A DNA stretch of 64,000 bases from Elusimicrobiaceae bacterium (GTDB lineage: Bacteria; Elusimicrobiota; Elusimicrobia; Elusimicrobiales; Elusimicrobiaceae), in contig JAFVFN010000026.1 of assembly GCA_017475405.1 (NCBI GenBank), positions 1-64,000 of the forward strand, given 5' to 3'. Within the stretch, counting starts at the first letter, position 1; the number at the start of each line of letters is the position of its first letter. A program made the position numbers and the translations under genes. Below the pieces are notes generated by a model. It made no database searches, was not told the DNA's origin, and was given only the letters and a program-made list of their open reading frames with translations. Shown here piece after piece: positions 100-63,229 of this stretch.

Positions 100-141
100 T
101 ATACAACCTCCGGGGTTGCACTAGCAGGTTGAACTGTGGTG
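1..141 (-). mobile_element. IS30-type insertion element, 5' end only
   Basis: The element runs off the left edge of the window and only its transposase-proximal end is visible. The segment between the transposase start and the interrupted pilin gene (about 100-141) contains a TTGCACTAGCAGGTTGAA-like end, which resembles IS30-family termini as I remember them. The exact boundary and any target duplication cannot be fixed from one end. The element reads leftward, away from the pilin gene it has cut. Confidence 0.55.
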
Positions 142-381
142 ATATGCAGGAGTATTGACATCAAGTTCTTCCCAATTAGAAGTATATTCCCCATTGGCTA
201 AATAATAAACTTCTTGGGCTTGAGCAATGGCCTTGACTAAGGATTTCATGGTGGTATAACGACTTCTGATAATAGCTTTTTGATATTGCGGTACGGCCAC
301 AGCGGCTAGGATACCTATTATCAGTACAACAACCAATAATTCAATTAACGTGAAACCTTTCCAATAATTTTTATAATTCAT
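121..381 (-). pseudogene. type IV pilin, truncated by the insertion element
   Basis: The reading frame starts with a short basic leader (MNYKNYWKG) and the class III signal FTLIELL, with cleavage expected after Gly9 and Glu at mature position 5. It then has the hydrophobic helix and the [13 protein letters not shown] block shared by the other pilins here. It stops after about 86 residues, while intact siblings have 163-188. The last residues are probably encoded by the insertion element terminus. The start at 381 is preferred over the GTG at 390 because GAGGTG at 388-393 is the ribosome site. A structured leader (382-624) precedes it. It probably no longer yields a functional pilin. Confidence 0.8.
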
Positions 382-624
382 TTTATACACCTCGCTATTT
401 TTCTATTTTTGAGGTATAAAATGACGGCTGCTACATCAGACCTCCAGGAAGATAGCCCAACATAACAGCCGTAGTTTGTCACCTTTACAGGTAACAAACA
501 CTTGAACAAATAGACTGCGCAAGTCTATTTGTTCTCTATCGGCTATTTTTGACTTCCTGGAGTGTCGTCAAGACACATCCCGTATTCTGCATACGGCTCA
601 AAAATAGATTAAATTTTATACTAC
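382..624 (-). ncRNA. structured pilin leader RNA, copy 1
   Basis: Extended -10 TGTTATAAT (hexamer at 631-636) precedes the leader. Reading 5' to 3' on the minus strand: P1 5' strand S1 (598-607), two small hairpins, pairing strand K1 (553-562), P1 3' strand S2 (543-552), two hairpins, then a terminator-like stem whose loop holds K2 (442-451). K1 and K2 are perfectly complementary over 10 bp. S3 (402-413), just before the ribosome site, is also a perfect complement of the S1 region. This copy has a broken T-run after the terminator-like stem. No Rfam family was recognised. Confidence 0.8.
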
Positions 625-7845: not shown

Positions 7846-8100
7846 GTAGTAAAAATTAAAAATTTATCTGTTTTTGGAATCCTACGTAGAATAGGAAGTC
7901 ACTGAATATAGTGTGCTAATCCCGTCCAAAGACAGCTGTTTTAGGCAGAGGGTATGAAAGGTAGCTCCCGTAGTATCTCCTGTCGAGTGTATCGCATTTA
8001 TATGCGGTGCCACGGCTGTTTGATGACTGGGACTGGGATTAGCCCCGGTGCTTACAGCCGTTTTATTATGGGTTCATAAACAGAAAAGAAAGGAGATATT
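7846..8100 (+). ncRNA. structured pilin leader RNA, copy 2
   Basis: Extended -10 with TATAAT at 7834-7839. S1 (7868-7878) pairs with S2 (7925-7935). K1 (7915-7923) is a perfect 9-bp complement of K2 (8035-8043), which lies in the loop of a terminator-like stem (5' arm in 8011-8020, 3' arm near 8054-8061) followed by TTTT. Two hairpins lie between S2 and the terminator-like stem, one long (about 7940-7985) and one short. S3 (about 8076-8086) repeats the S2 sequence just before the AAAGGAG ribosome site. Confidence 0.85.
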
Positions 8101-8640
8101 ATGAAACATAATAAACGAGCGTTTACGCTCATTGAACTTTTGGTTGTAGTCTTGATTATAGGCATTTTGGCGGCAGTAGCTTTGCCACAGTATCAAAAGG
8201 CCGTAGAAAAAAGTAAGGCTATGCAAGTGCTTAGTTTATTAAAGAGTATTTGGCAAACACAAGAAATTTATTATTTAAATAATGGGACATATGCAACTAA
8301 GTTTAGTCAATTAGATAACCAAATTTCATGGACTGGTTCTTCCAAATGGAGAACAGACTCGGTAAGTGATACATTATCATCTAAAGATTGGTCATTACAA
8401 ATTTATAATGACGGTACATATTCTTCTATGTCTTTAGGTCTTTTGCAAGGGCCCTATAAAGGGGCGGGTTTTGTAATATATATGCAACCTAGACCTTTAG
8501 TAGAAAAAGGGAAAATTTATTGTGTTGAGAGAGATATGAATGGAGTGGTTTTTGAGCGGCAACGAGGGGATTATTGTACTAAATTATGGAATGGCCAAGT
8601 GATTTACTCTGCCAACCCTGTTATATTTTCAATGCCTTAA
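8101..8640 (+). CDS. type IV pilin (PilE-like)
   Basis: Structural pilin subunit or pseudopilin of 179 residues. The leader MKHNKRA is followed by FTLIELL, so cleavage would be after Ala7 (not Gly), with Glu at mature position 5. The hydrophobic assembly helix runs to about residue 30. A variable globular domain follows, with two Cys in its last third that could form the family's C-terminal disulfide. It stands alone, with its own leader RNA upstream and a terminator downstream, and no pilus machinery genes adjoin it. Confidence 0.9.
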   Translation: MKHNKRAFTLIELLVVVLIIGILAAVALPQYQKAVEKSKAMQVLSLLKSIWQTQEIYYLNNGTYATKFSQLDNQISWTGSSKWRTDSVSDTLSSKDWSLQIYNDGTYSSMSLGLLQGPYKGAGFVIYMQPRPLVEKGKIYCVERDMNGVVFERQRGDYCTKLWNGQVIYSANPVIFSMP

Positions 8641-17044: not shown

Positions 17045-17557
17045 CTATTGATTTATAATGAAATAACCCGAATTAGAATTCCCTGGCCAACTTGTGGTAT
17101 CAAGTTGTCCAAGACTTTGGCAAATATTTTTGGCGATAGTTGATTTGTCGGCGGCTATGCACCATTTTTTACCATTGTACTGTGGACGTGTGGTAGAATG
17201 TAAGGAATGGAACTCAAAAGTAGGCATACTCCGGTTATTAACCGTAGCAACACAGGTACGTTTTCCTCCGCAAAAAAATGAATATTTGTCTTCATATTTA
17301 GGAGGTTCCTCTTCATCTAGTATTAGGTTGGACTCTATATCTATGTCTAATTCGCTAATATCATCCGTATATTCACCATTGGCTAAGAAGTATACTTCTT
17401 GTGCATCGTTAATAGCTTTAAGCAAAGTCATAGCTTCAACAGCACGTGCTTTGTAAACTGCTTTTTGGTATTGTGGCAGTGCCACAGCTGTCAGAATACC
17501 TATTATTAGCACAACGACTAGAAGTTCAATGAGGGTAAATGCTTGAGTTGATTTCAT
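17045..17557 (-). CDS. type IV pilin (PilE-like)
   Basis: Pilin of 170 residues with leader MKSTQA and FTLIELL, so cleavage is predicted after Ala6. Four Cys in the globular domain include FFCGGKRTC and the common C-terminal ICQSLG block. Its body is clearly the sibling of the pilin at 23230-23730 (shared KARAVEA, NGEYTDDISELDID and TVNNRSMPTFEF segments), yet the two have different upstream control regions. It is a single gene with a structured leader (17558-17811), downstream of and divergent from the PBP1A promoter. Confidence 0.9.
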   Translation of the reverse strand: MKSTQAFTLIELLVVVLIIGILTAVALPQYQKAVYKARAVEAMTLLKAINDAQEVYFLANGEYTDDISELDIDIESNLILDEEEPPKYEDKYSFFCGGKRTCVATVNNRSMPTFEFHSLHSTTRPQYNGKKWCIAADKSTIAKNICQSLGQLDTTSWPGNSNSGYFIINQ

Positions 17558-17811
17558 AAGTTTCTCCTTATTTATCTATATTTTTGAAACCATGAAAAAA
17601 CGGCTGTTATCATTGAGTTGCTTTCACCCTTCCCAACAATAACAGCCGTGGCTTACCGCAATGCGGTAAACGCTCGGCACAAGTAAGACTGCAGGACTCA
17701 CTTGTACCTAAATCGGCTGTTTTTGGAGTGAAAGCAAACTTCTGATTTTTCAAAAGTAAGCCGTATTCTCTATACGGTTCCAAAAACAGATAAAATTTTG
17801 ATTTTAACTAC
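17558..17811 (-). ncRNA. structured pilin leader RNA, copy 3
   Basis: TATAAT at 17818-17823. S1 (17779-17789) pairs perfectly with S2 (17717-17727). K1 (17728-17737), abutting S2, is a perfect 10-bp complement of K2 (17618-17627) in the loop of the ACGGCTGTT/AACAGCCGT terminator-like stem, which is followed by six T. Two further hairpins lie between them. S3 (17573-17591) next to the ribosome site can also pair with the S1 region. Confidence 0.87.
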
Positions 17812-23143: not shown

Positions 23144-23229
23144 AAAACGCGTCGGCACATTTTGCTTGACGCGTTTTTTTTTTTTGATATTCTCTCTTTA
23201 TAAGTAAAAAAATATATAAGGAGAGAAAT
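23144..23229 (+). promoter_or_regulatory. pilin upstream unit type B, copy 1: T12 terminator, promoter, ribosome-site hairpin
   Basis: A stem 23144-23153 with 23168-23177 and a run of 12 T (23174-23185) terminates proC. TTGACG (23166-23171), 16 nt and TATTCT (23188-23193) form a promoter using the T-run as spacer. An inverted repeat whose 5' arm starts at about 23189 can pair with the TATAAGGAGAGAA segment holding the ribosome site. Transcripts from the local promoter start inside or after the 5' arm, so only read-through RNA could form the full hairpin. The unit is nearly identical at 60789 and 63150. Confidence 0.75.
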
Positions 23230-23730
23230 ATGGTTCAACAAAAACAAGCATTTACGCTTATAGAGCTTTTGGTAGTAGTGTTAATTATAGGGATTTTAGC
23301 AGCGGTAGCGGTGCCGCAGTACCAAAAAGCAGTTTACAAAGCACGTGCTGTAGAAGCGATTACTCTGCTAAAATCTATTACTGATGCGCAGGAAGTATAT
23401 TTTCTGGAGAATGGGGAATATACGGATGATATCAGTGAACTAGATATAGATGTGGCTGTTAATTTAATGGGTAGTGCAAAATTCGAAGATAAATATTCAT
23501 TTTTTTGCGGAGGAAAACGTACCTGTTTTGCTACGGTTAATAACCGGAGTATGCCTACTTTTGAGTTTGAACTCTTGCATGATCGTGTATTTCCAATAAA
23601 TGCAGGAAAAAAATACTGTCATATCTATAATGGAAGTAAAGATAATATAGCATTGAGTATTTGTAAAAGTTTGGGGAAGAAGGATACAGATGGTGTAGTA
23701 TCGACTGGTAAATATTTCATTCTTAACTAA
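23230..23730 (+). CDS. type IV pilin (PilE-like)
   Basis: Pilin of 166 residues, leader MVQQKQA then FTLIELL, cleavage predicted after Ala7. Four Cys (FFCGGKRTC, KYCH, ICKSLG). The body is a close relative of the pilin at 17045-17557, while the 5' region and N-terminal codons match the pilins at 60872 and 63230. Ribosome site AAGGAGAG. It lies between proC and the ZIP transporter gene and is functionally unrelated to both. Confidence 0.9.
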   Translation: MVQQKQAFTLIELLVVVLIIGILAAVAVPQYQKAVYKARAVEAITLLKSITDAQEVYFLENGEYTDDISELDIDVAVNLMGSAKFEDKYSFFCGGKRTCFATVNNRSMPTFEFELLHDRVFPINAGKKYCHIYNGSKDNIALSICKSLGKKDTDGVVSTGKYFILN

Positions 23731-24546: not shown

Positions 24547-25113
24547 TTATTCTACTCCTACCTCGGCACATTTGCTTTTGGCATCATAAGAACGTTCTTC
24601 GTTATCTATCATAGGACCTTTCCACCATTGACAGACTACTTGGCGAGCCGATTTGTCTATAGGGACTATAGTTAAATACCATGTGGCATCGGTGCCAAAC
24701 CGATCAATGGCAATATTTCCACCATTTAGCCAATTATTTCCGGAAGAACCATCACTATTATACCAGGAATGTAATTCAATACCACAATAAGATGTGCCAC
24801 ATCCTACATTCCAGGCACCTGCTTTCTTAAGACAATTACGGCCTACTAGGCAAGGGGTACCAGGTAAGTCAATATCTAGAGAGCCAGAGTTTGTTGTCCC
24901 GGTAAAACGCACAACTTCTTCGGGAAAACCATTAGCCAGTAAATAAGCATCAATCGCCTGCTGAGCCGATTTGGCAACAGCTCCAAATTCACTTAGCCGG
25001 GCTTTTTGTACCGCCTTAGTATATTGCGGCATAGCTACTGCCGCTAAAATTCCTATAATCAATACGACGACTAAAAGCTCAACGAGCGTAAATCCTTTTT
25101 CTGTAAGATTCAT
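24547..25113 (-). CDS. type IV pilin (PilE-like), Cys-rich
   Basis: Pilin of 188 residues, the longest intact one here. Leader MNLTEKG and FTLVELL, cleavage after Gly7. The globular part has about six Cys (PCLVGRNC, VGCGTSYC, VVCQWW, SKCAEV), so two or three disulfides are possible. It follows its leader RNA (25114-25360) and converges with the ZIP transporter gene. Confidence 0.9.
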   Translation of the reverse strand: MNLTEKGFTLVELLVVVLIIGILAAVAMPQYTKAVQKARLSEFGAVAKSAQQAIDAYLLANGFPEEVVRFTGTTNSGSLDIDLPGTPCLVGRNCLKKAGAWNVGCGTSYCGIELHSWYNSDGSSGNNWLNGGNIAIDRFGTDATWYLTIVPIDKSARQVVCQWWKGPMIDNEERSYDAKSKCAEVGVE

Positions 25114-25360
25114 AAATTATTCCTCATAATTTGCCAAATCCGATATACAATAAAAACGGCTGTTGTATCGGATTGCCTCAAAGTAACCCCATAAACAGCC
25201 GTGGTTTACTATTCCAAGAACAGTAAACACTCGGCGCAAGGAATGGTTTTCGACGCCATTGTCTTGTGCCTAAAACGACTATTTTTGACTTTGAGGCGTA
25301 TTGTACTAGACAATACACGCTGTATCTGTATACAGCCCCAAAAACAGTATTAAATTGTGT
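25114..25360 (-). ncRNA. structured pilin leader RNA, copy 4
   Basis: S1 (25338-25347) pairs with S2 (25279-25287, one G-U). K1 (25288-25297) is a perfect 10-bp complement of K2 (25175-25184) in the loop of the terminator-like stem, followed by TTTTTT. Unlike the other copies there is no clear TATAAT upstream and no S3 repeat near the ribosome site. A TTTGCCAAAT lies where S3 should be. It begins about 30 nt after the stop of the upstream minus-strand gene and may depend on read-through. Confidence 0.78.
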
Positions 25361-32582: not shown

Positions 32583-32817
32583 ACAATTTAAAACTATTTT
32601 TGGGCCGTATTACAGGATACGGGAATGCTTCTTATGAAGCACTCGCAGAAGTCAAAAATAGCCGATATTAGGTATGATTGGGGTCAGCTGCCTCAATAAT
32701 ACCGAAGGTTTCCCGCTTGTCAAGCGGGAGACTACGGCTGTTGTATTGGATTTCTTCTGCGAGGTCCGGTATGACAGCCGTTTTGTAATACGCTCCCAAG
32801 AATAAGCGGGAGTAGCT
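32583..32817 (+). ncRNA. structured leader RNA, copy 5, before an ATP-grasp gene instead of a pilin
   Basis: TATAAT at 32571-32576. S1 (32594-32602) pairs with S2 (32653-32661). K1 (32642-32651) is a perfect 10-bp complement of K2 (32754-32763) inside the terminator-like stem, followed by TTTT. S3 (32795-32804) pairs with S1 with one G-U and lies directly before GCGGGAG. It has the same architecture and spacing as the pilin leaders but drives a non-pilin gene. Confidence 0.85.
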
Positions 32818-33774
32818 ATGATACCAAAGATAAGGAGTATATGTCGTAATATTGCCAAAGATCCTAAAAAAATTATTTCATACAGTTTGCTGGTTGTTGG
32901 TCCGGTGTTACCGGATAAATTATATTTACAAGTCAAATGGTGGTCGGTTACCGGCCGGACCTTAAATCTCCGTTCCCCGCAGGGATTTAATGAGAAAATA
33001 CAGTGGCTCAAGCTGTATAACCGTCGTAGCGAATATACAGCGTTAGCCGATAAATATGAGGTAAGAAAATACGTTAAAAAGACGATCGGAGAGGAATATT
33101 TGCTCCCGTTGCTTGGCGTGTGGGAAAGGGCCGAAGATATTGATTTTAAGCAATTACCTGATCAGTTTGTCCTTAAATGTACGCATAATTCGGGCGGGGG
33201 AATGTGTTTATGTAAAGATAAAAAACAATTGAATATTCCCCGCGTGGTTCAAGCATTGAATACAGCTCTTAAAAAGAATTTTTACCGACAGTTTCGGGAA
33301 TGGGTCTATAAGGACATTCCCCCGCGGATTATTGCAGAACCGTTTTTAATAGACCGGGATTCGTCCAATAAACTGGGTACCCTGATAGATTATAAGTTTT
33401 ATTGTTTTAACGGAGAGCCCAAGTTCTTATATGTGGGAGCAGACGATGTTTCTCAAGGCAAAAAAGGAGAGTTGGCATTATCTGTATTGGACCTGGACTG
33501 GAAACCGGCTCCGTTCGGACGCGCCGATCATCAACCGTTGGCGCAAGCGGTTGATAAACCTAAACAGTTTGAACAAATGGTAATGCTGGCTCGCAAGCTT
33601 TCCCGGGGGATTCCGTTTGTCCGGGTAGATTTATATTGGGTAAACGGGCAAATTTTATTTTCCGAAATGACATTTTATCCGGGTGCCGGATACGGGTTGT
33701 TTTCTCCCCTGGAATGGGAACATAAAATCGGGAAATGGCTTGCTCTTCCAACAGGGACTAACCATGAGAGGTAA
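32818..33774 (+). CDS. TupA-like ATP-grasp family protein
   Basis: 318 residues resembling the TupA-like ATP-grasp family found in polysaccharide clusters: FNEKIQWLKLYNR near the N-terminus, ADKYEVRKYVK, LPDQFVLKCTHNSGG (phosphate-binding part), DYKFYCFNGEPKFLYV, VRVDLYWVNGQILFSEMTFYPGAG (metal-binding acidic residues). Such enzymes probably ligate an amino acid or similar group to a surface polymer. No glycan cluster surrounds it. Its only visible link is the pilin-type leader, which suggests shared control with pilins. Confidence 0.82.
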   Translation: MIPKIRSICRNIAKDPKKIISYSLLVVGPVLPDKLYLQVKWWSVTGRTLNLRSPQGFNEKIQWLKLYNRRSEYTALADKYEVRKYVKKTIGEEYLLPLLGVWERAEDIDFKQLPDQFVLKCTHNSGGGMCLCKDKKQLNIPRVVQALNTALKKNFYRQFREWVYKDIPPRIIAEPFLIDRDSSNKLGTLIDYKFYCFNGEPKFLYVGADDVSQGKKGELALSVLDLDWKPAPFGRADHQPLAQAVDKPKQFEQMVMLARKLSRGIPFVRVDLYWVNGQILFSEMTFYPGAGYGLFSPLEWEHKIGKWLALPTGTNHER

Positions 33775-39172: not shown

Positions 39173-39422
39173 ACAATTTATCTGTTTTTGGAACCGTTTA
39201 AGAAACGGAGATCTTTTAAGGTAATAAAAGAGCTTTGCTCTCCAAAAACAGTCGTTTTAAGGTGCAAAATTTATCAAGTAGCTCTTAGTAGATTTTGTAC
39301 CGAGTGTTTCCCGTATTATTACGGGAGGCCACGGCTGTTGTTTTTGGGTTCTGAGCAAAGCATCCAAAATAAGACAGCCGTTTTATTTGGTTTCATCAAC
39401 AGAATATACAAGGAGAATGTTT
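39173..39422 (+). ncRNA. structured pilin leader RNA, copy 6
   Basis: Extended -10 TGCTATACT (hexamer 39161-39166). S1 (39182-39191) pairs perfectly with S2 (39242-39251). K1 (39232-39240) is a perfect 9-bp complement of K2 (39353-39361) in the loop of the terminator-like stem, followed by TTTT. A CCCGTATTATTACGGG-type hairpin precedes that stem. A shortened S3 (about 39394-39405) lies before AAGGAG. Confidence 0.87.
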
Positions 39423-39914
39423 ATGAAATACCAAAACACCCGGCGGGGTTTCACGTTAATAGAATTACTGGTTGTTGTGTTAATAATAGGTATTTTAGCC
39501 GCAGTGGCACTACCGCAGTATCGCATTGCAGTAGAAAAAAGTCGTATAACACAGTTACTTGTTCGTATGGATGCTCTGTATAAAGCAGGAGCAGCATATT
39601 ATTTGGCGAATGGAGAATATCCGACTGATGTACAAGAGTTAGATATTGATATTGCTTCAAATGCGAAAGAAATTAGACAAATTACAGAGATAACGTCAGC
39701 TCCCCATACCGGGGTAGTTTATGCTGATAATTCAAAGTGTGCTATTGTTCATAAAACAGATGGAAACGTAGGTTGCCTAACCAATAATATTTGGTTATTA
39801 TGGCGACGCCCTGAAAACCGTCGAACGTGCAGAGGTATGTCAACATTAGGTCAGAAAGTTTGTAAAACCCTTAGTACTGGTGAATATATTGAGGATGATG
39901 GGTATCTAATGTAA
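39423..39914 (+). CDS. type IV pilin (PilE-like)
   Basis: 163-residue pilin, leader MKYQNTRRG then FTLIELL, cleavage after Gly9. The start at 39423 is chosen over 39387 because AAGGAG lies just before it and the other pilins have short leaders. Four Cys (SKCAIV, VGCLTN, RTCRGM, KVCKTLS). The globular domain is distinct from the other pilins. It converges on rluD. Confidence 0.9.
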   Translation: MKYQNTRRGFTLIELLVVVLIIGILAAVALPQYRIAVEKSRITQLLVRMDALYKAGAAYYLANGEYPTDVQELDIDIASNAKEIRQITEITSAPHTGVVYADNSKCAIVHKTDGNVGCLTNNIWLLWRRPENRRTCRGMSTLGQKVCKTLSTGEYIEDDGYLM

Positions 39915-45366: not shown

Positions 45367-45867
45367 CTACCAATTTAGCATGTTACAAACCATTTGGCCT
45401 AACGTATCGTATGGAACGCAGAGTTTTTCCCACTTCTGTGTTGGATAACGTCTGAAATATAAGTAGTAATGAGAACCTATATCGCTTGCATCTGATTTCA
45501 AAAAGCGTTTTGCACGAACTGTACATATCGTAGAAGTGCAGTATGCGTCATAAGCAAAATATTTTGATAAACACATACCTGGACTAGTGGTGCAATCAAA
45601 ATTAGGATGTGTCACCTCCAATGCATCTATGAACGGATTATTGCCGGAGTTTCCAATAAACTCTATGGTTTGAGTTGGAAAACCATTTTCTAATAAATAG
45701 ACTTCTAAGGCTTTTTGAATGCTACTATTAAAACTTAGTGGCTCTGCTAAACGTGATTTTTCTACGGCTTTTTGGTATTGCGGCAAAGCGACTGCTGCTA
45801 AAATGCCTATTATCAGAACAACCACTAAAAGTTCAATCAGTGTAAATGCTTTTTTATTTGTTTGCAT
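45367..45867 (-). CDS. type IV pilin (PilE-like), Cys-rich
   Basis: 166-residue pilin with leader MQTNKKA and FTLIELL, cleavage predicted after Ala7. The globular domain has six Cys (FDCTTSPGMC, AYCTSTIC, KLCVPY, MVCNML). The ending MVCNMLNW is a variant of the common C-terminal Cys block. It lies just upstream of the pgm promoter on the same strand. Confidence 0.9.
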   Translation of the reverse strand: MQTNKKAFTLIELLVVVLIIGILAAVALPQYQKAVEKSRLAEPLSFNSSIQKALEVYLLENGFPTQTIEFIGNSGNNPFIDALEVTHPNFDCTTSPGMCLSKYFAYDAYCTSTICTVRAKRFLKSDASDIGSHYYLYFRRYPTQKWEKLCVPYDTLGQMVCNMLNW

Positions 45868-46118
45868 ATAATTCTCCTTACAATTTTCTGTTTGGAGTAT
45901 ATGTAAAACGGCTGCTTATATAGGAGCACATAACGAGGAGCTCCATCAAAACAGCCGTGGCTTACTGCAAAGCAGTAAACACTTGACACGCAGTAACAAG
46001 CTCATGACTTCCTATTACCTTGTGTCTAAACCGACTGTTTTTGGCTCGTTATGTTGTCCCTATTTGACTAAGAACATCCCTGTATTCCGTATACAGTTCC
46101 AAAAACAGAAGAAATTGT
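45868..46118 (-). ncRNA. structured pilin leader RNA, copy 7
   Basis: Extended -10 TGCTATAAT (hexamer 46125-46130). S1 (46099-46108) pairs perfectly with S2 (46035-46044). K1 (46045-46054), abutting S2, is a perfect 10-bp complement of K2 (45928-45937) inside the terminator-like stem, followed by TTTT. S3 (45894-45907) can pair with S1 with a bulge and sits before AAGGAG. Confidence 0.87.
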
Positions 46119-51237: not shown

Positions 51238-51500
51238 AACATTCTCCATAAGTCAGATTCAAATTATCTGTTTTGGGAGAAAAAACGGCCGCTGTCAATG
51301 AGCCGAAATCAGGTCGTCCAATAAACAACAGCCGTGGTCTGCCGCTTACGCGGTAAACACTGGGCACAATATAAATGGGTAATTAGTCCATTATATATTG
51401 CACCTAAAACGACTATTTTTGGCCTGATTTCGGGTATTGTTTGCTTAGTTTGCAAACAAACCGACTGTATTCTTCATACATCCAAAAACAGATAAATTGT
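51238..51500 (-). ncRNA. structured pilin leader RNA, copy 8
   Basis: Extended -10 TGCTATAAT (hexamer 51507-51512). S1 (51482-51491) pairs with S2 (51413-51422, one G-U). K1 (51423-51433), abutting S2, is a perfect 11-bp complement of K2 (51303-51313) inside the terminator-like stem, followed by TTTTTT. A long hairpin (GCAATATATAATGG arm) and a short one lie between. S3 (51264-51277) pairs with S1 over at least 9 bp. Confidence 0.88.
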
Positions 51501-51803: not shown

Positions 51804-54800
51804 ATGACAAATAAAAACCTAGAACCGATTGCTGTAGTAGGTATCGGTGCTATCATGCCCGGAGCTTTAAACAAAGATGAGTTCTGGAACAACATTCAGA
51901 CTGGTAAATACTGCATTACAGAGATCCCTGCGTCTTACTGGGACTATAAGCTTTTCTATAGCCCAGACCATAAAGCAGAAGATAAACTTTATTCCAAAAT
52001 CGGCGGTTTTATCCCGCAAGAGTTCAAATTTAATTCCTTAAAATACCGCATTCCTCCTCAAATTGCCAAACAGATGGATACGGTGCAGCACTTAGCCATT
52101 GAAACTACCCGCATGGCGTTGGAAGACAGCGGCTATGATAAAAAAGCGTTTGATCATAACCGCACCGCGGTCATTATTGGCAACTCCATGGGCGGTATGA
52201 AAAACGAGATGTCCAATACACGTTTAAATCGTCCTTTTATTTATGAAATCTTAAAAAATACCACTGCTTATAAATCACTCGCTCCGCAAGATGCCCAAAA
52301 AATGATGGATGAAATGGATGCGGGCGTACGTGAAAAATTTACCCCGATTAATGAAGATTCCATGCCGGGGGAACTCGCTAACGTGATCCCGGGTCGTGTG
52401 GCCAACGTGTTTGACCTGCACGGCACAAACTTTGCCGTAGACGCGGCCTGTGCGACATCTTTGGCTGCGATTGACCAGGCTGTAAACGGACTTCGCATGG
52501 GTAATTTTGACATGGCCATTGCCGGCGGTGTAGATCAGATGATGTCTCCCTCTGCCTACATCAAGTTCTGCAAAATCGGTGCCTTGTCTGAAACAGGTTC
52601 TTATCCTTTTGATGCACGTGCCAACGGCTTTGTAATGGCCGAAGGTGCGGGTATGGTTATCTTAAAACGTCTGTCCGATGCCGTCAAAGACGGAGACCGT
52701 GTCTATGCGGTGATCCGTGCCGTAGGTGCTTCTTCTGACGGTAAAGGAAAAGGTATTACCGCTCCGAACCCCAAAGGCCAAAAATTGGCCGTTGAAAAAG
52801 CTTTTGAACAGGTAGAATATACACCTGCCGACGTGGGACTTATTGAAGCGCATGGTACCGGTACACGGGTAGGCGATGCGGTGGAACTTTCCGCGTTAAC
52901 CGAAACTTTCGGTCCGTATGCCAAACCGGGTTCCGTGGGACTAGGAAGTGTCAAAAGCCAAATCGGACATGCCAAAGCGGCAGCCGGTATTGCGGCATTA
53001 ATTAAAACCACCTTGGCCTTATATAATAAGGTATTGCCGCCCTCTGTGAATTTTGAAACCCCGAACCCGAATGTGGATTGGACGACTTGTCCGTTCCGTG
53101 TGATTACCAAAGCAGAAGCTTGGCCGGATGGCAAAATCCGCCGTGCTAACGTGTCTGCTTTCGGGTTTGGCGGCACGAACTTCCACGTGGCTATGGAAGA
53201 AATGAACGATACTTTGTTGCAACAAAAAACCACAACGACTGCACAAGCTGCGGTACCGGTAACGGTGTCTGCCGCTGCGCAAACACCCGCGTACACATTG
53301 CATGTACCGGGTGAAAAAATCCAAAGCGATGTATTGACGTTCTCCGCGGCAACCAAAGAAGAGTTGTATCAGGTATTAGACCGGGCTGCCTTGGCTGCGG
53401 TACTGGATCCGACTTATTTGCCGAGCATTTCGTACCACAATCACATTGCTAAACCGGGTGCTTTTGCTGTAACCATTAACGTGGAAAGCCCCGAAAAACT
53501 AAAAGAAAAAATTGAATTTTTTAAGAAAATTGCCGCTAAACAGGATGTATGGACGACGGAGTCTTTGCACTTGCGCATGAAATCCATCTATCCGTTTACG
53601 CCCAGTGAAATTAAACCCAAAGTCTGTTTTATGTTCCCGGGACAAGGGTCTCAGTATGTGGACATGATGAAAGATTTGGCTTCTAAATATAAGGTAGTAC
53701 AGGATACCTTTGATGAAGCGGATCGCCTATTACTCGGGATTATTGGGCAAACCTTAACGGAAACTTTATGGAGCAAACCCGGCGAGACCAAAGAACAGAT
53801 TGCCGTACGGGAAGCGGCCATTAAGAAAACCGAAATGACCCAGCCTGCGGTACTTACGGCCGATATCGCCATGATGCGCTTGTTGTCCTCGTTTGGTATT
53901 AAACCGGACGTAGTCATGGGGCACAGTTTGGGTGAATACGCCGCTGCCGTGGCAGCCGGTATTTTTGATTTTGAAAACGGTCTTAAAGCCGTATGTACCC
54001 GCGGGAAAGTGATGAGTGAAATTCGCGTGGAAGACAACGGGAAGATGGCCTCTATCGCGGCGCCGGTTGAAAAAGTAGAACCGGAACTGTCTCGTATTTC
54101 GGGATACGTGGCTGTAGCCAATAAAAACTGCCCTACTCAAACGGTTATTGCGGGGGCCAGTAAATCCATTGACGATGCCATTGCCATGTTTACAGCCATG
54201 GGGATCCAGGCTGTGCAAATCCCGGTATCTCATGCATTCCACTCGGCGATTGTACGTCCGGCCATGCCGCAGTACCGTGCGTTCTTGGATACCTTAAAAT
54301 TTAACGCGCCTATTATGCCGATTACCACTAACGTAACGGCTGAGTTTTATCCCAGCGATCCGGAAAAAATCAAGGATTTAATGGTAACGCAGATTTCTCA
54401 TTCCGTGGAATGGATTAAACAACTGCAAACTACCTATGATTCCGGAGTGCGCTTATTTGTAGAGTGCGGACCCAAACGAGTACTTTCCGCACTGGCCACG
54501 AGTACGCTTGCGGATAAAAAAGATATTAAGGTAGTAGCTTCCAACCATCCCAAGAAAGGCGGGATTGTGGAATTTAACGATTTGTTTGCCAACTTTATTT
54601 CTTCGGGTATCCACGTAGACTGGAAAGGAACCGATATGTATGGCGACAACAGCACTTTCAACCCGGCTTTTGTAAACTGGGTAACTTCCAATGCGCCGCA
54701 GGCCGTACAGGCTGCGGGTAAAACTTCTGCCGCATGTGCGTGCAATGAAACAGAGGACGAAGAATCTATGAAACAAAAATCTATTGTAATTAGCGGTATT

Positions 54801-57800
54801 GCTGCCGGCGGTCCCGGTAGCTGGGATAAAATTTTCCGCGAAGGAGTACTTGACGAAATTTTATCGGGCCGCAATATGATTGAGCCGGTCAGCAGTGAAA
54901 TCCAACAAAAACAAATTGATAAACATGTAGAATTTGTCATCAAATCCAAAGACGGGAACCACCGCTTTGAACGCTTAACCTCGCCCACGCAGGCCATTAA
55001 ACTTGCCGCACGCGGCGGTGGTTTTGATTTGGAAAAAGAGTTTGGTTTGCCTGCTAAATGGGTCAAATCCATGGATCGTTCGTTCCAGTTAGCCATTGCA
55101 GCCGGTATGCTTGCTTTGAAAGATGCGGGTATCCCGTTGGTGCTTTACTATAAACCGACTTCCACGGGTGGTTATTTGCCGGACCGTTGGGGTTTGCCGG
55201 CTGATATGATTGATGAAACCGGTGTCATTTTTACTTCTGCGTTCCCGGTAGCCAACAGCATGATGGGTGATCTGACCAAACGCGTGGAAGGGTTATTAAA
55301 TAACAAGACGGCCAAAGAGGTGCGTGCGTTCTGCGATAAGTTTATTGCCCAAATTGCAGATCCGGCACTCAAAGCCGAAATGGAAACCTGGTATCAGCAA
55401 AACTTCAAAGAAAAAGAAATCGAACCCCAGGCTTTTACCTCGGAATTTATCTTAAAAACCATTATTATTGCGCATTCTCATTTCTGCCAATGGATCCGTG
55501 CGCGCGGACCGGCTACGGCCATGAGCGCGGCCTGTGCATCTACCGCACAAGCGATCTCCATTGCACAGGACTGGATTAAACTGGGCCGCTGTAAACGCGT
55601 AATCGTCATCAGTGCTGATGATATTACCAACGATAATGTCAGCGAATGGATTTTAACGGCGTTCTTAGCCAGCGGCGCCGCTACCACCGAAGCCGATGTA
55701 ACTAAAGCGGCGTTGCCGTTTGACCGCCGCCGTAACGGTATGATTGTTGGTATGGGCGCGGTATCGTTGATTGTTGAAGAAGAAACCGAAGTCGCCAAAC
55801 GCGGTATGAAACCGCTTGCCAAACTCTTGGAAACGGAAATCGCCAACAGTGGTTTCCACGTAACCCGCTTGGATGTGGGACACGTAGCCAAGGTAATGAA
55901 CCGTTTGGTCTGCGCTGCTGAAAAAGATTATGGTTTAAACCGCAGTGATATTGCCAAGCAGTTGGTGTTTATTTCCCATGAAACCTATACGCCTGCCCGC
56001 GGCGGTTCTGCCAGTGCCGAGGCGTATGCGTTGAAATCCACCTTTGGAGCAGACGTAAGCAGTGTTATTGTCAGTAACACTAAAGGGTTTACCGGACACT
56101 CTATGGGAGCCGGCTTGGAAGACGCTATTGCCGTACGCTGTTTGAACACCGGACTGGTGCCGCCGATCGCCAACTTTAAGGAAGCCGATCCGGAACTGGA
56201 AGGGATTACCTTAAGTAAAGGCGGACATTATAATTTTAAATATGCCCTGCGCTTAGCCGCCGGGTTTGGAAGTCAATTAGGTATGACACTCTTGGAAAAA
56301 GTCTGGCAAGAAGGGGAGCCTCGTATTGCCGATACGGCCAAACACGACGCATGGCTCAAGGAAATCTCCGGCCAAAGCGCTCCTGTGTTGGAAGTCGTAC
56401 AAAATACGCTGCGCATTAAAGACAACTACCAGCACGGCGTAAAACCGGCACTGGTCATGGAAGGTTCTCAAGCCTTTGTCGATAAGGTCAATGCCATCCC
56501 GACCGTGCAATCTGCCACGCAGACCGTGACCACGCCTGCGGCGCAGCCTGCACCGGCCCCGGTGGCTGCTGCTCCGACAAAAGTATTGGACGAAGCCACG
56601 GTAACCAAAGAAGTAGTACAGATGGTATCTGAAAAAACGGGTTATCCGGAAGACATGTTGGAACTGGATCTGGACATGGAAGCTGACTTGGGTATTGATA
56701 CGGTGAAACAAGCCGAATTGTTTGCCGGGATGCGCGAGCATTACGGGATTGCCCAACAAGACGGTATCCAGCTCAAAGATTATCCGACCATTCGCCATTG
56801 CATTAACTTTGTATTAGCCAATGCCGGTAAACCGACTGCTGCGAGTGCTCAATCGGCACCTGTAACTCCGACCGTTGCACCTGCTCCTGCAGTAACTCCT
56901 GCACCCCAACCGGTACAGGCCGCTTCGGTAAAAGCTGCAGCGTTAGATGAGGCCACGGTCACGAAAGAAGTGGTAACCATGGTCGCAGAAAAAACGGGTT
57001 ATCCGGAAGACATGTTGGAATTAGATTTGGACATGGAAGCCGACTTGGGTATTGATACGGTGAAACAAGCCGAATTGTTTGCCGGGATGCGTGAGCATTA
57101 CGGGATTGCCCAACAAGACGGTATCCAGCTCAAAGATTATCCGACCATTCGCCATTGCATTAACTTTGTATTAGCCAATGCCGGCGGGAATGCTGCGGCA
57201 AGCAGTGCACCTGCAATGCAAGCTGTACAGGCTGCTCCCGCGACGCCGGTCGCAGAAACTCCGGCTCCAACGGTAACTCCTGTAGCTCAACCGACGTCTG
57301 TAGTAACCCCAGTCATTGAATCGACTCAACCGGCAGCGGTAAAAGAAGAAACTGCGGTATTTGAACCCAGTCACGCTTTACCGGAACATAAACTAGTGCA
57401 TCAACCGGAACATATTGTAGCCGAACATATTGATGCGCCCAAAGCCGATGCATTGATTACCAATCCGACGGCTCCGATTGAAAAACGAGAATCGTTAGCG
57501 GAACGCCCGGAACGGGAAGGTTATCAGGGGGAACATTGCCATGAGAAAAAACTGCGCTATGTGACCACGATTGCCGATGCACCGCTTACGCAGCGCGATA
57601 ACCGCCGTTTGTCCAAGGATCGTACGGTACTCATTTTTGCTGACAACTCGCAACTTATTAAAGCCTATCAGGAAGAATGTAAAGAGTTGGGTGTTCCTTA
57701 TCACGTGTTTACCACGCTTAAAACGCGCAGCAAAAACACGACCATTATGAACTGGGAATCCTACGAAGAAACCGAAGCTGCTTTAAAAGCGTATGCACAG

Positions 57801-60143
57801 GAAGACCCCAACATCCAAGGTGTTGTCTACCTCTTGGGTGCTACGGTGAAAAAGTTTGATAAAAAGCTCAGTCCGCACAATGAACTGACCAAATATGTCA
57901 TGCCGTTGTTTATCGCGCTTCGCGTATTTGAAAAAGGCTTGGCTAACCGCACGGACAGTGATACGTTCTTTGCCGTGAATACGAAAATCGATGGTAACTT
58001 CGGTTACTATACCAAAGAAGAGTTTAACCCGATTGTGGGTGCGTTAACTGGTGGTACGACGTGTTTCCGCAAAGATGTCTATGAACGTACGGGTGCAATT
58101 TCCAAACTCATGGACTTTGAACCTACTGCCACGCCCGATGAAATGGCCCAAAAAACCATGGATGAAGTCCTTCACGGAGATATGCGCTTGATGATCGGTA
58201 CCCGCGACGGTGTACGTTCTACCATCTTGGGATTACCGACCCGGTTGGACCGCCGTGTCAAACACTTTGATTTAGCGGGAAAGACCATTATCTTTACCGG
58301 ATCCGGACGCGGTATCGGAGCCATGCTTTCTCAGAAGATTGCCGCCCAGTACCACAGCAAAATCATCGTCTTGGATATTATCGAAATCCAGGAGAAGACA
58401 CCGCTGTGGGCTTCCATGAACGAAGCCGAACTGGCTGCTTTGAAGAAACAAATCTGGGAAGACCTCAAAGCCGATCCGACCCAAAAGGCCACGCCGGTTC
58501 TGTTGGAACGTGCGTTTGGACGTGTGAAAGATTCCATTACGCTCTACAATAACTTACAGAAATTACGTGATTTGGGCAGCGAAGTAGAATACTATCATTG
58601 CGACGTAATGAATGCCGCCATGATGAAAGAAGTCTGCACCAAGATCAAAGCGAAAAACGGTCGTGTGGACGGACTGATCCACTTCGCCGGTTTGGAACGC
58701 TCCAAACTCATTTACGACAAAGACCCGGCCGAATACTACCGCATCTTTGATGTAAAAGCTACCAGTTTCGGTACGTTCCTGGCTAACAATATTGTACGTG
58801 ATGACGGCTTCTTCGCCTTTGCTTCTTCCATTGCCGGTAAATACGGTAACTTAGGACAAAGCGATTACGCCAGTGCCAACGATTATTTAGCCAAGTCTGC
58901 CCTGTCCTTGACTAACCAGGGTTATCGCGCAGTCAGCATTGCCATGAGTGCTTACAAGAATGTAGGTATGGGTGTGCGTGCTGGTGTGGAAACGTTCCTG
59001 CGTTCCAACGGAGTGGACTTCGTGGATCCCGAAGACGGTATGCAGATCTTCTTGGATGAAATCGTATACGGACAAGTACCGGAAATCGTACTGACAGGTT
59101 CCCTGGGTCGTTTGGACTGGGACCATCAGTTGAAATTTGACTGGGACGAAATCGGCTCTGCCGCCGATTTCGCTTCCACGGATAACGGTAACGATACCCC
59201 CAAAGGCGGTGCAGCAGCACCCGCCACAACAGTGAAACCGGCTACCGTCAAACCGGCCGCACGGGCCGAAGTCAAAGGGCCGGATGCTTCCAAAGCCACG
59301 CATTTTTTGGGGGAAGTAAAGTCCCTGGAAAAGGGGGCCGAAATCCACGTAGAAAAAGAGTTTAATTTGAACTCTGATCCGTATTTGGCTGATCACGCCA
59401 TTGAAGGTACTCCGTATGTGCCGGGTGTGATGGGGATTGAAACGTTTTTTGAAACCTCTACGGCATTAACGGGTCGTGTGACCAAGGCACTTCAGGATGT
59501 ACATTTTTACTTGCCTATTAAGCTGCTTCGCAACCGCCCGCAGGCTGTGCGCGTAATTGGTAAGGCGGTCGGTAATGACGTGGATATGGAAATCGAGTCT
59601 GATTTTATTAACAGTAAAGGCGTCAAAATGGGAAATACCCGTCGTCACTTTACGGCTAAGACCCTGGAAGAATTTACTTCTACCTGGGAACAGGTCAAAG
59701 CTGATGCCATGACGGGACTGGAAAGCCCGCTGCAGGTAACTCCGGCAGAGATTTACCAGAAATATTTCCACGGTCCGTCTTTCCAGGTATTGGGTGGTAT
59801 CGTGCGTGTAAATGAAAAAGAATCCTTAGCCATTTACAACACAACTCCGCGTCCGCAATGGTCTGACGCACCGCGCACGTTACTCGCAAACCCGATGCTT
59901 ATTGAAGCAGCTTTTCAATGCTGCGGGTTCCAGGATATGTCTGTAGCCCATAAGATGACCTTACCGGACGGTATTGCCGAAGTAGCGGTACTTAATAACC
60001 AATTGCCTCCGGCCCGGTTATACCTCTATGGGGTAAACAAGGGTGCAACCGTTGACGGAAAAACCTTGCATGATGCTTATGTGTTTGACGCGCAGGGCAA
60101 CGTGTGGGTGGAAATCCACGGTTATCAAGCCATCGGACAATAA
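51804..60143 (+). CDS. multidomain PUFA-synthase/PKS-like lipid synthase (KS-AT-KS-ACP-ACP-KR-DH)
   Basis: A 2779-residue iterative type I synthase. KS1 at about 5-450 with triad Cys216 (DAACATS), His350 (HGTGT) and His389 (GHAK). AT at about 600-930 with GQGSQ and Ser708 in GHSLGEY. KS2 at about 990-1510 with Cys1244, His1392 (in HETYTP instead of HGTGT) and His1432. Two near-identical ACPs have GIDTVKQAE, with Thr1633 and Thr1752 at the pantetheine position. KR follows with GSGRGIG (about 2170) and Tyr2355, then a hotdog DH with His2531 (DHAIEGTPYVPG) and Glu2701. No ER or thioesterase. The product is probably a hydroxy or unsaturated fatty acyl chain. The PPTase gene overlaps the stop codon. 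Confidence 0.9.
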   Translation: MTNKNLEPIAVVGIGAIMPGALNKDEFWNNIQTGKYCITEIPASYWDYKLFYSPDHKAEDKLYSKIGGFIPQEFKFNSLKYRIPPQIAKQMDTVQHLAIETTRMALEDSGYDKKAFDHNRTAVIIGNSMGGMKNEMSNTRLNRPFIYEILKNTTAYKSLAPQDAQKMMDEMDAGVREKFTPINEDSMPGELANVIPGRVANVFDLHGTNFAVDAACATSLAAIDQAVNGLRMGNFDMAIAGGVDQMMSPSAYIKFCKIGALSETGSYPFDARANGFVMAEGAGMVILKRLSDAVKDGDRVYAVIRAVGASSDGKGKGITAPNPKGQKLAVEKAFEQVEYTPADVGLIEAHGTGTRVGDAVELSALTETFGPYAKPGSVGLGSVKSQIGHAKAAAGIAALIKTTLALYNKVLPPSVNFETPNPNVDWTTCPFRVITKAEAWPDGKIRRANVSAFGFGGTNFHVAMEEMNDTLLQQKTTTTAQAAVPVTVSAAAQTPAYTLHVPGEKIQSDVLTFSAATKEELYQVLDRAALAAVLDPTYLPSISYHNHIAKPGAFAVTINVESPEKLKEKIEFFKKIAAKQDVWTTESLHLRMKSIYPFTPSEIKPKVCFMFPGQGSQYVDMMKDLASKYKVVQDTFDEADRLLLGIIGQTLTETLWSKPGETKEQIAVREAAIKKTEMTQPAVLTADIAMMRLLSSFGIKPDVVMGHSLGEYAAAVAAGIFDFENGLKAVCTRGKVMSEIRVEDNGKMASIAAPVEKVEPELSRISGYVAVANKNCPTQTVIAGASKSIDDAIAMFTAMGIQAVQIPVSHAFHSAIVRPAMPQYRAFLDTLKFNAPIMPITTNVTAEFYPSDPEKIKDLMVTQISHSVEWIKQLQTTYDSGVRLFVECGPKRVLSALATSTLADKKDIKVVASNHPKKGGIVEFNDLFANFISSGIHVDWKGTDMYGDNSTFNPAFVNWVTSNAPQAVQAAGKTSAACACNETEDEESMKQKSIVISGIAAGGPGSWDKIFREGVLDEILSGRNMIEPVSSEIQQKQIDKHVEFVIKSKDGNHRFERLTSPTQAIKLAARGGGFDLEKEFGLPAKWVKSMDRSFQLAIAAGMLALKDAGIPLVLYYKPTSTGGYLPDRWGLPADMIDETGVIFTSAFPVANSMMGDLTKRVEGLLNNKTAKEVRAFCDKFIAQIADPALKAEMETWYQQNFKEKEIEPQAFTSEFILKTIIIAHSHFCQWIRARGPATAMSAACASTAQAISIAQDWIKLGRCKRVIVISADDITNDNVSEWILTAFLASGAATTEADVTKAALPFDRRRNGMIVGMGAVSLIVEEETEVAKRGMKPLAKLLETEIANSGFHVTRLDVGHVAKVMNRLVCAAEKDYGLNRSDIAKQLVFISHETYTPARGGSASAEAYALKSTFGADVSSVIVSNTKGFTGHSMGAGLEDAIAVRCLNTGLVPPIANFKEADPELEGITLSKGGHYNFKYALRLAAGFGSQLGMTLLEKVWQEGEPRIADTAKHDAWLKEISGQSAPVLEVVQNTLRIKDNYQHGVKPALVMEGSQAFVDKVNAIPTVQSATQTVTTPAAQPAPAPVAAAPTKVLDEATVTKEVVQMVSEKTGYPEDMLELDLDMEADLGIDTVKQAELFAGMREHYGIAQQDGIQLKDYPTIRHCINFVLANAGKPTAASAQSAPVTPTVAPAPAVTPAPQPVQAASVKAAALDEATVTKEVVTMVAEKTGYPEDMLELDLDMEADLGIDTVKQAELFAGMREHYGIAQQDGIQLKDYPTIRHCINFVLANAGGNAAASSAPAMQAVQAAPATPVAETPAPTVTPVAQPTSVVTPVIESTQPAAVKEETAVFEPSHALPEHKLVHQPEHIVAEHIDAPKADALITNPTAPIEKRESLAERPEREGYQGEHCHEKKLRYVTTIADAPLTQRDNRRLSKDRTVLIFADNSQLIKAYQEECKELGVPYHVFTTLKTRSKNTTIMNWESYEETEAALKAYAQEDPNIQGVVYLLGATVKKFDKKLSPHNELTKYVMPLFIALRVFEKGLANRTDSDTFFAVNTKIDGNFGYYTKEEFNPIVGALTGGTTCFRKDVYERTGAISKLMDFEPTATPDEMAQKTMDEVLHGDMRLMIGTRDGVRSTILGLPTRLDRRVKHFDLAGKTIIFTGSGRGIGAMLSQKIAAQYHSKIIVLDIIEIQEKTPLWASMNEAELAALKKQIWEDLKADPTQKATPVLLERAFGRVKDSITLYNNLQKLRDLGSEVEYYHCDVMNAAMMKEVCTKIKAKNGRVDGLIHFAGLERSKLIYDKDPAEYYRIFDVKATSFGTFLANNIVRDDGFFAFASSIAGKYGNLGQSDYASANDYLAKSALSLTNQGYRAVSIAMSAYKNVGMGVRAGVETFLRSNGVDFVDPEDGMQIFLDEIVYGQVPEIVLTGSLGRLDWDHQLKFDWDEIGSAADFASTDNGNDTPKGGAAAPATTVKPATVKPAARAEVKGPDASKATHFLGEVKSLEKGAEIHVEKEFNLNSDPYLADHAIEGTPYVPGVMGIETFFETSTALTGRVTKALQDVHFYLPIKLLRNRPQAVRVIGKAVGNDVDMEIESDFINSKGVKMGNTRRHFTAKTLEEFTSTWEQVKADAMTGLESPLQVTPAEIYQKYFHGPSFQVLGGIVRVNEKESLAIYNTTPRPQWSDAPRTLLANPMLIEAAFQCCGFQDMSVAHKMTLPDGIAEVAVLNNQLPPARLYLYGVNKGATVDGKTLHDAYVFDAQGNVWVEIHGYQAIGQ
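56632..57183 (+). repeat. tandem duplication of the ACP domain inside the synthase gene
   Basis: Segments 56632-56826 and 56989-57183 are offset by exactly 357 nt (119 codons). They encode the same 65 residues and differ by about five silent bases. This indicates a recent duplication or ongoing gene conversion. Ala/Pro/Val-rich linkers before and after differ more. Confidence 0.88.
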
Positions 60144-60788: not shown

Positions 60789-60871
60789 CGCGCAAGCAAA
60801 ATAACGCTTGACGCGTTTTTTTTTTTTGATATTCTCTCTTTATAAGTAAAAAAATATATAAGGAGAGAATG
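60789..60871 (+). promoter_or_regulatory. pilin upstream unit type B, copy 2
   Basis: Terminator stem within 60789-60815 (with a small internal bulge) followed by 12 T. TTGACG (60808-60813), 16 nt, TATTCT (60830-60835). The inverted repeat ATTCTCTC / GAGAGAAT brackets a TATA-rich loop and covers the GGAGAG ribosome site, as in the copies at 23144 and 63150. It probably terminates the PPTase transcript and starts the pilin transcript. Confidence 0.75.
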
Positions 60872-63149: not shown

Positions 63150-63229
63150 CGCGTCAAAAATAACACTTGACGCGTTTTTTTTTTTTGATATTCTCTCTTT
63201 ATAAGTAAAAAATATATAAGGAGAGAAAT
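63150..63229 (+). promoter_or_regulatory. pilin upstream unit type B, copy 3
   Basis: Perfect 8-bp stem (63150-63157 with 63167-63174) and 12 T. TTGACG (63167-63172), 16 nt, TATTCT (63189-63194), then the TTCTCTC / GAGAGAA inverted repeat over the ribosome site. Here a separate terminator (63088-63114) already closes the upstream gene, so the first stem is not needed for that gene and seems to belong to the unit itself. Confidence 0.77.

Follow-up and report, generated by a model that had tools for sequence, protein, structure and literature searches.

The question raised by this locus is whether the leader of a short pilin-type open reading frame (ORF), in which several strands have more than one possible partner, is organized as a switch, and what such a switch might respond to. 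The window, as the whole stretch of DNA analyzed is called here, consists of bases 1-64000 of contig 8 of a 1.68-Mb Elusimicrobiota genome, a draft assembly of 30 contigs (93% complete) whose nearest named relatives are metagenome-assembled. A covariance model (R1) was constructed from seven leader copies over the core from S2 through P4 and P5 to P6-5', and eight leader copies were identified with the model in the 64-kb window; over the whole genome of 1.68 Mb it identified 127. Copy 1 stands between a TATAAT-like box and the pilin-type ORF, and copies 1-8 of the window are numbered by coordinate, which is consistent with what the preliminary description says of copies 1, 4 and 5. We propose, at a probability of about 0.66 and on the evidence of sequence comparison, that this leader represents a new class of structured 5' leader, acting in cis as a transcription terminator/antiterminator switch.

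The elements are arranged from 5' to 3' in the general order S1 (CUGUUUUUGGA), P2, P3, X, S2 with its extension (CCAAAAACAG plus YYG), P4, P5, P6-5' (ACGGCUGUU), X' within the P6 loop, P6-3' (RCAGCCGU), T-tract, S3 and ribosome site, and the distance from the end of P6 to the start codon is usually 35-55 nt. The positions in the window are listed in Table 1.

Table 1. Leader copies, the parts of copy 1 and the T12-type 5' regions in the window (L4, P4 loop)
Feature	Position	Strand	Sequence, partner or remark
Leader copy 1, S1 through end of terminator-like stem P6	424-607	-	S1 start 607; R1 match 457-561, 81.9 bits
S1 (P1 5' strand)	598-607	-	CTATTTTTGA; partner S2 or S3
P2 hairpin	580-596	-	CCGTAT-GCAGA-ATACGG; from sequence
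P3 hairpin	562-576	-	sequence variable; kept between orthologues
X	553-562	-	CTCCAGGAAG; perfect complement of X' 442-451
S2 with extension	540-552	-	TCAAAAATAGCCG; P1 3' strand, also putative antiterminator strand against P6-5'
P4 hairpin	504-534	-	apical loop 516-522, palindrome TGCGCA, predicted kissing loop
P5 hairpin	474-499	-	GTTTGTTACC..GGTGACAAAC; 9/9 pairs with compensatory changes, 96 copies
P6 5' arm	463-472	-	ACGGCTGTTA; partner P6-3' (terminator) or S2 extension (antiterminator)
X'	442-451	-	CTTCCTGGAG; within P6 apical loop
P6 3' arm	424-432	-	AGCAGCCGT, then T-rich tail CATTTTAT
S3	402-413	-	CTCAAAAATAGA; 12-bp complement of 597-608, directly 5' of ribosome site
Pilin-type ORF downstream of copy 1	124-384	-	87 aa in-frame; Pfam PF07963 (N_methyl), E=3e-7
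Leader copy 2	7868-8061	+	S1 start 7868; X 7915-7924; X' 8034-8043; L4 7961-7968 with AGCT; S3 AAACAG 8078-8083; pilin at 8101
Leader copy 3	17600-17789	-	S1 start 17789; X 17726-17737; X' 17618-17629; L4 17689-17695 CTGCAG; S3 17576-17586; pilin at 17557
Leader copy 4	25156-25347	-	S1 start 25347; X 25288-25297; X' 25175-25184; L4 25246-25256 with TCGA; without clear S3; pilin at 25113
Leader copy 5	32594-32781	+	S1 start 32594; X 32642-32651; X' 32754-32763; L4 32684-32690 CAGCTG; S3-like 32796-32804; TupA-like ATP-grasp gene at 32818, no pilin
Leader copy 6	39182-39381	+	S1 start 39182; X 39232-39240; X' 39353-39361; L4 39278-39284 with AGCT; S3 AACAG 39398-39402; pilin at 39435
Leader copy 7	45908-46108	-	S1 start 46108; X 46045-46054; X' 45928-45937; L4 46000-46011 with TCATGA; S3 TCCAAACAG 45888-45896; pilin at 45867
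Leader copy 8	51285-51491	-	S1 start 51491; X 51423-51433; X' 51303-51313; L4 51378-51388 with TAATTA; S3 CCAAAACAG 51268-51276; pilin at 51249
T12-type 5' regions	23165-23194; 60807-60836; 63166-63195		

The preliminary description had seen in copy 1 a switch-like design, in which S1 is complementary both to S2 and to S3, and S2 continues into a strand that could serve as an antiterminator. The complementarity of S1 to S2 (TCAAAAATAG, 543-552) is present in the sequence, the 12-bp match to S3 is perfect, and S2 continues as AATAGCCG (540-547), which is able to pair with the terminator 5' arm (463-472). The S2 extension, of the form AACAGYCG, is complementary to the terminator-like stem's 5' arm, and compensatory changes preserve this complementarity, in line with the proposed antiterminator strand. 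In an alignment of 96 sequences, 97.5% of the cells of this helix (H, S2 extension with P6-5') were paired and 5 of its 8 pairs showed double changes. For H, P4 and P5 taken together, the figures were 98.3% of cells and 19 of 22 pairs, above all shuffles and slides; these counts are biased toward the model's structure, to which the covariance model had fitted the alignment. All five copies with CUAUU in P6-5' carry AUAG in S2. H and P6 (P6-5' with P6-3') compete for one 5' arm and are therefore mutually exclusive. P1 and H overlap by 5 nt only, so that a shortened P1 could coexist with H.

That P6 may work as a terminator is suggested by its GC-rich stem, after which, ahead of the gene, 218 of 236 copies have 5-7 T among the first 8 nt; the T-tract follows the P6 3' sequence ACAGCCGT, and the T-run of copy 1 is poor (CATTTTAT). 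The switch-like design is sustained by the exclusivity of H and P6, the covariation of S1 and the near-equal energies of the two folds, but two elements had been missed, the X:X' helix and the palindromic P4 loop. The helices, the covariation, the X:X' pairing and the palindromes all come from comparing sequences. The X:X' helix, the strongest of the elements and about 10 bp long, connects X, directly 5' of S2, with X' in the P6 (terminator) loop. A pairing of at least 8 bp was found in 153 of 156 copies, with a mean of 10.4 bp as compared with 5.9 bp for X and X' swapped between copies, and in 236 of 242 copies overall; in a second, non-overlapping set, X:X' holds in 54 of 55 close copies and 29 of 31 distant-family copies. 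The pairs of the host genome are 96% Watson-Crick. The length clusters at 10 ± 1 bp, which would be about one A-form turn and might suit a helix closed inside a loop.

Two folds are predicted from these parts. In fold T, S1 and S2 would form P1 around P2 and P3. P4 and P5 follow, and then P6 as the intrinsic terminator, with the stem ACGGCUGU:ACAGCCGU and a U-rich tail; in this fold X may also pair with X', which lies in the P6 loop, and so form a pseudoknot. In fold A, X:X' and the duplex of the S2 extension with P6-5' would join into a single long helix, nested around P4 and P5, consuming the terminator 5' arm and setting free S1, which in many copies may close on S3 beside the ribosome site. 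In 156 copies, P1 plus terminator was on average about equal in energy to the antiterminator: the difference between T and A averaged -0.6 ± 5.1 kcal/mol (ViennaRNA), with A better in 84 of the 156, where a spread of 5 kcal/mol is large and the energies ignore pseudoknots and tertiary contacts. The mean energies were -24.3 kcal/mol for the P6 hairpin and -25.9 kcal/mol for the antiterminator duplex; the two stabilities correlate (rho 0.36), in part by construction because both use one invariant strand. When the RNA was ended just after X', A won in 155 of 156 copies by about 9 kcal/mol (ViennaRNA). Because X' is transcribed before P6-3' and A wins at that stage, fold A should form first and P6 would have to displace it for termination; the survival of fold A against P6 would decide read-through. 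The balance might be tipped by a ligand, a protein, a second RNA copy or kinetics only.

The outer helix between S1 and S3 fared less well. S3-like segments are seen in copies 2, 3, 5, 6, 7 and 8 as described earlier, and AACAG-type S3 was found in 50% of copies as against 11% in shuffles. S1 changes together with both S2 and S3, and in the host genome G or A at the variable position of S1 tends to be matched by C or U in S3, the counts of S1 G/A against S3 CAG/UAG being 61, 4, 1 and 7 (Fisher p = 1.5e-6, kinship ignored). The match to S3 is, however, usually 5-7 nt (about 6), the 12 bp of copy 1 being exceptional, and outside the host genome S3 is mostly missing (64 of 84). A general outer helix of 10-12 bp was therefore rejected. 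In copies 1, 5, 7 and 8 the ribosome site could be masked by a CUCC of S3, but overall CUCC is only weakly enriched (19% as against 13% in shuffles). In copies 1 (383-418, minus strand) and 5 (32790-32815, plus strand), a part of S3 (CCUC/CUCCC) can pair with the ribosome site (GAGG/GGGAG), so that S1:S3 pairing would free the ribosome site in these two copies.

The strands with two partners, S1, S2 and P6-5', are near-invariant, while X and X', each the other's sole partner, are free to differ, and all 127 X sequences of the host genome are distinct. Among leader pairs with a scaffold identity of at least 0.80, which are not independent of one another, 8 or more of the 9 X positions agreed in 20 of the 24 from the same gene as against 11 of the 113 from different genes. 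Four leaders (L230, L235, L240 and L243) have scaffolds 90-94% identical and X sequences mostly unrelated (3-5 of 9 positions, 7 in one pair); some X codes are common to leaders of different genes in different species. X appears to behave like a per-gene code, kept in orthologues and not in near-identical leaders of other genes. A partner of X in trans or in its own gene is unsupported, since the 464 kb of the host genome searched outside leaders showed no excess of X 10-mers (61 vs 86 shuffled), and X matched its own downstream sequence no better than the downstream sequence of other leaders. Selection against mutual complementarity of X codes was not seen, cross-matches being slightly above random.

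The second missed element is the palindrome of the P4 loop. Of 50 distinct P4 loops, 47 carry one of at least 4 nt, where 2000 shuffles gave a mean of 22 and at most 32, and 32 carry one of at least 6 nt (shuffled mean 5, maximum 13). In the second set, all 19 near loops and 8 of the 13 far ones were palindromic, and interior palindromes are rare in the loops of P5 (10 of 108) and of P2/P3 (14 of 197). The palindromes include TAATTA, TTATAA, TTCGAA, TCATGA, TTGCAA, CTCGAG, CAGCTG, CTGCAG, TCTAGA, TGCGCA, GATC, GGCC, GTAC and AGCT, at least 12 different ones coexisting in one genome, and the palindrome covaries, being kept while the loop sequence changes. Because a mid-loop palindrome of 4 nt is unable to self-pair within one molecule, a kissing homodimer is its natural reading; the P4 loop is thus predicted to carry the signature of such a dimer and should let two leaders kiss.

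As to what tips the balance, a riboswitch, in which the P1-P2-P3 or the P4/P5 junction would bind a metabolite such as a cyclic dinucleotide and stabilize one fold, with X:X' as a freely drifting structural helix, is a possible but somewhat unlikely solution. The conserved unpaired stretches UUUUAGG and GAGU around the three-way junction, the strong conservation of S1 and the near-equal energies of the folds would agree with it, and c-di-GMP is possible in the host because of three GGDEF domains in its genome; c-di-AMP from DisA is unlikely because a search of the host genome for DisA did not find it. The leader, however, matches none of the c-di-GMP-I, c-di-GMP-II and cGAMP riboswitch models nor any other Rfam family, its targets are without a single metabolic theme, and drift alone fails to explain why X is identical in orthologues and different on scaffolds about 90% identical.

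Control by a dedicated RNA-binding protein, which would read S1/P1 (CUGUUUUUGGA) and shift the balance while X:X' sets the strength for each gene, is unlikely. The near-invariance of S1 even where S2 tolerates G-U is consistent with such an attenuator, and gene-specific helices could tune expression, but the invariance of S1 is also explained by its two-partner pairing, and neither CsrA nor a specialized NusG paralogue was found in the host genome, which has one NusG-family gene.

Rather improbable is a self-recognizing leader, in which X:X' and the palindromic L4 would work between a pair of transcripts from one gene. In this way the leader would respond to other copies of itself, or to the terminated leader RNA of its own gene, and give gene-private feedback with independent on/off of each surface gene. 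Each of the 127 leaders would then recognize its own copies, the palindromic loop joining them and the X:X' code checking their kind. The distinctness of all 127 X codes, the retention of X at 8 or more of 9 positions mainly in same-gene pairs, the fit of the L4 palindromes to homodimers, a count of X 10-mers outside leaders that gives no indication of a separate trans partner, and target genes of kinds often phase-variable all speak for it. On the other hand, pairing in cis suits X:X' and would prevail by local concentration, the cross-complementarity of different X codes is not below random, with no active avoidance seen, and some X codes recur in leaders of different genes in different species. 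If true, transcripts of one gene would regulate the terminator of that gene alone, which would constitute an RNA-based, gene-by-gene switch of surface proteins that needs neither DNA inversion nor repeat slippage. Should the private code operate between molecules, RNA self-recognition would be a means of regulating many near-identical genes singly.

A DNA-level element such as a recombination or integration site is very improbable, as the many dispersed copies, the inverted complementarity and the mosaic similarity between parts that recall one are set against a fixed position and orientation between TATAAT-like box and ribosome site, G-U pairs throughout the helices, the U-rich tail after P6 and zero matches in viral contigs.

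The putative cis-acting terminator/antiterminator switch is associated in the host genome mainly with pilin genes, 120 of the 127 copies being located directly upstream of one; the N_methyl (type IV pilin-like) matches scored in this genome number 150. In the window, seven of the eight copies precede pilins. Targets outside the window include glycosyltransferases (GT2, GT8 and GT9), RgpF, polysaccharide pyruvyl transferase, lipoproteins and methylases (EcoRI-type methylase and N6/N4 DNA methylase). Pilins, glycosyltransferases, lipoproteins and DNA methyltransferases are gene kinds often phase-variable in host-associated bacteria. With a matching 10-letter code for each copy, the cell may switch many surface genes individually.

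Using the covariance model, the leader was found in 81 of 295 Elusimicrobiota genomes sampled and in 6 of 90 genera sampled, two in the host's own family and four in one distant family; a second species of the same genus has at least 62 copies, and other genomes typically have 1-12. When 84,980 named species were scanned with a DNA pattern, at least 67 matches were obtained, nearly all in Elusimicrobiota, and the closest named records among the matches listed were gut, rumen and faecal Elusimicrobia metagenome-assembled genomes (MAGs). The alphaproteobacterial and archaeal pattern matches (L182 and L188) were not confirmed by the covariance model. A pattern scan of viral contigs gave zero leader matches, and a mobile or viral element was rejected on this ground. 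Rfam 15 at the gathering threshold gave 0 matches in the 64 kb with its eight leader copies, and at a relaxed threshold copy 1 gave just weak snoRNA/sRNA matches far below the gathering scores, so that a known RNA family was rejected; in the part of the literature covered by our search, no published account of the leader was found. Judged by these searches, the leader is a previously undescribed RNA family, absent from Rfam, and would add an undescribed class of leader RNA to a poorly studied gut phylum.

Several pairs of leaders differ in part only. Two leaders of the host genome (L011 and L030) are 95% identical over the P4/P5 core but differ in promoter, P3, X and gene, a pattern suggestive of gene conversion within the core. 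A P3 plus X module (..TCCAACCACG) is common to L048, L160, L173 and L185 of four species, where it precedes a methylase, pilin or unassigned gene and the promoter and P4/P5 have diverged. In the distant family, variant leaders (L239 1265-1365, L239 1501-1609 and L252) have a different P4 loop and CGGCGGCT as P6-5', and a tandem pair of such variants precedes an EcoRI-type methylase-like ORF.

By mechanism type, the leader belongs with the terminator/antiterminator leaders. Riboswitches and attenuators are the general class with intrinsic terminator/antiterminator expression platforms. The leader is like them in its 5' position, a shared strand, exclusive folds and a co-transcriptional strand order, but differs in being without a known aptamer, in an antiterminator core made of a 10-bp gene-private helix, in having 127 copies per genome, and in a terminator loop that holds an antiterminator strand. 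We know of no counterpart among such leaders for either the gene-private antiterminator core or the multi-allelic palindromic loop and, to our knowledge, the copy number per genome is far above that of any known riboswitch. With their independent 10-bp helices, the 127 natural variants would offer a ready mutation series of antiterminator strength against expression. The c-di-GMP riboswitches (GEMM-I/II) likewise stand ahead of type IV pilin-like genes in several copies per genome, but their architecture is different and the leader has no Rfam match (gathering threshold; relaxed for copy 1).

The dimerization initiation site (DIS) of HIV-1 is a hairpin-loop palindrome of six nucleotides, and the HIV leader swaps partners between monomer and dimer folds (PMC7357161). 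The present leader is alike in the hairpin-loop palindrome, but is a bacterial mRNA with at least 12 palindromes per genome. Multimers through complementary loops are formed by phage phi29 pRNA and bicoid mRNA (PMC7357161), to which the leader is similar in having two different complementary elements per RNA, with cis or head-to-tail pairing possible; its pair differs in being 10 bp, gene-private and tied to a terminator. GOLLD, ROOL (named after its rumen origin) and OLE are ornate homo-oligomeric bacterial RNAs with RNA-only homotypic assembly (PMC12286853). They are, like the leader, natural structured bacterial RNAs, the homotypic contact of the leader being predicted, but are large, unlike the short multi-copy pilin leaders, and have no sequence relation to it in Rfam.

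Three leaderless pilin genes of the window (at 23230, 60869 and 63230) have another common 5' region, CTTGACGCG-T12-GATATTCTC, in which the T12 run sits within the apparent promoter spacer. A run of 12 T in a promoter spacer is a classic arrangement for slippage-driven phase variation. In the genome, CTTGACGCG-T-run-GATATTCTC was found as an exact match 32 times, with T12 in 30 and T13 in 2. The window also includes an ORF of 2779 aa (51804-60143), possibly for a giant surface protein, with an internal direct repeat of 242 nt at 56586 and 56943 that is 93% identical.
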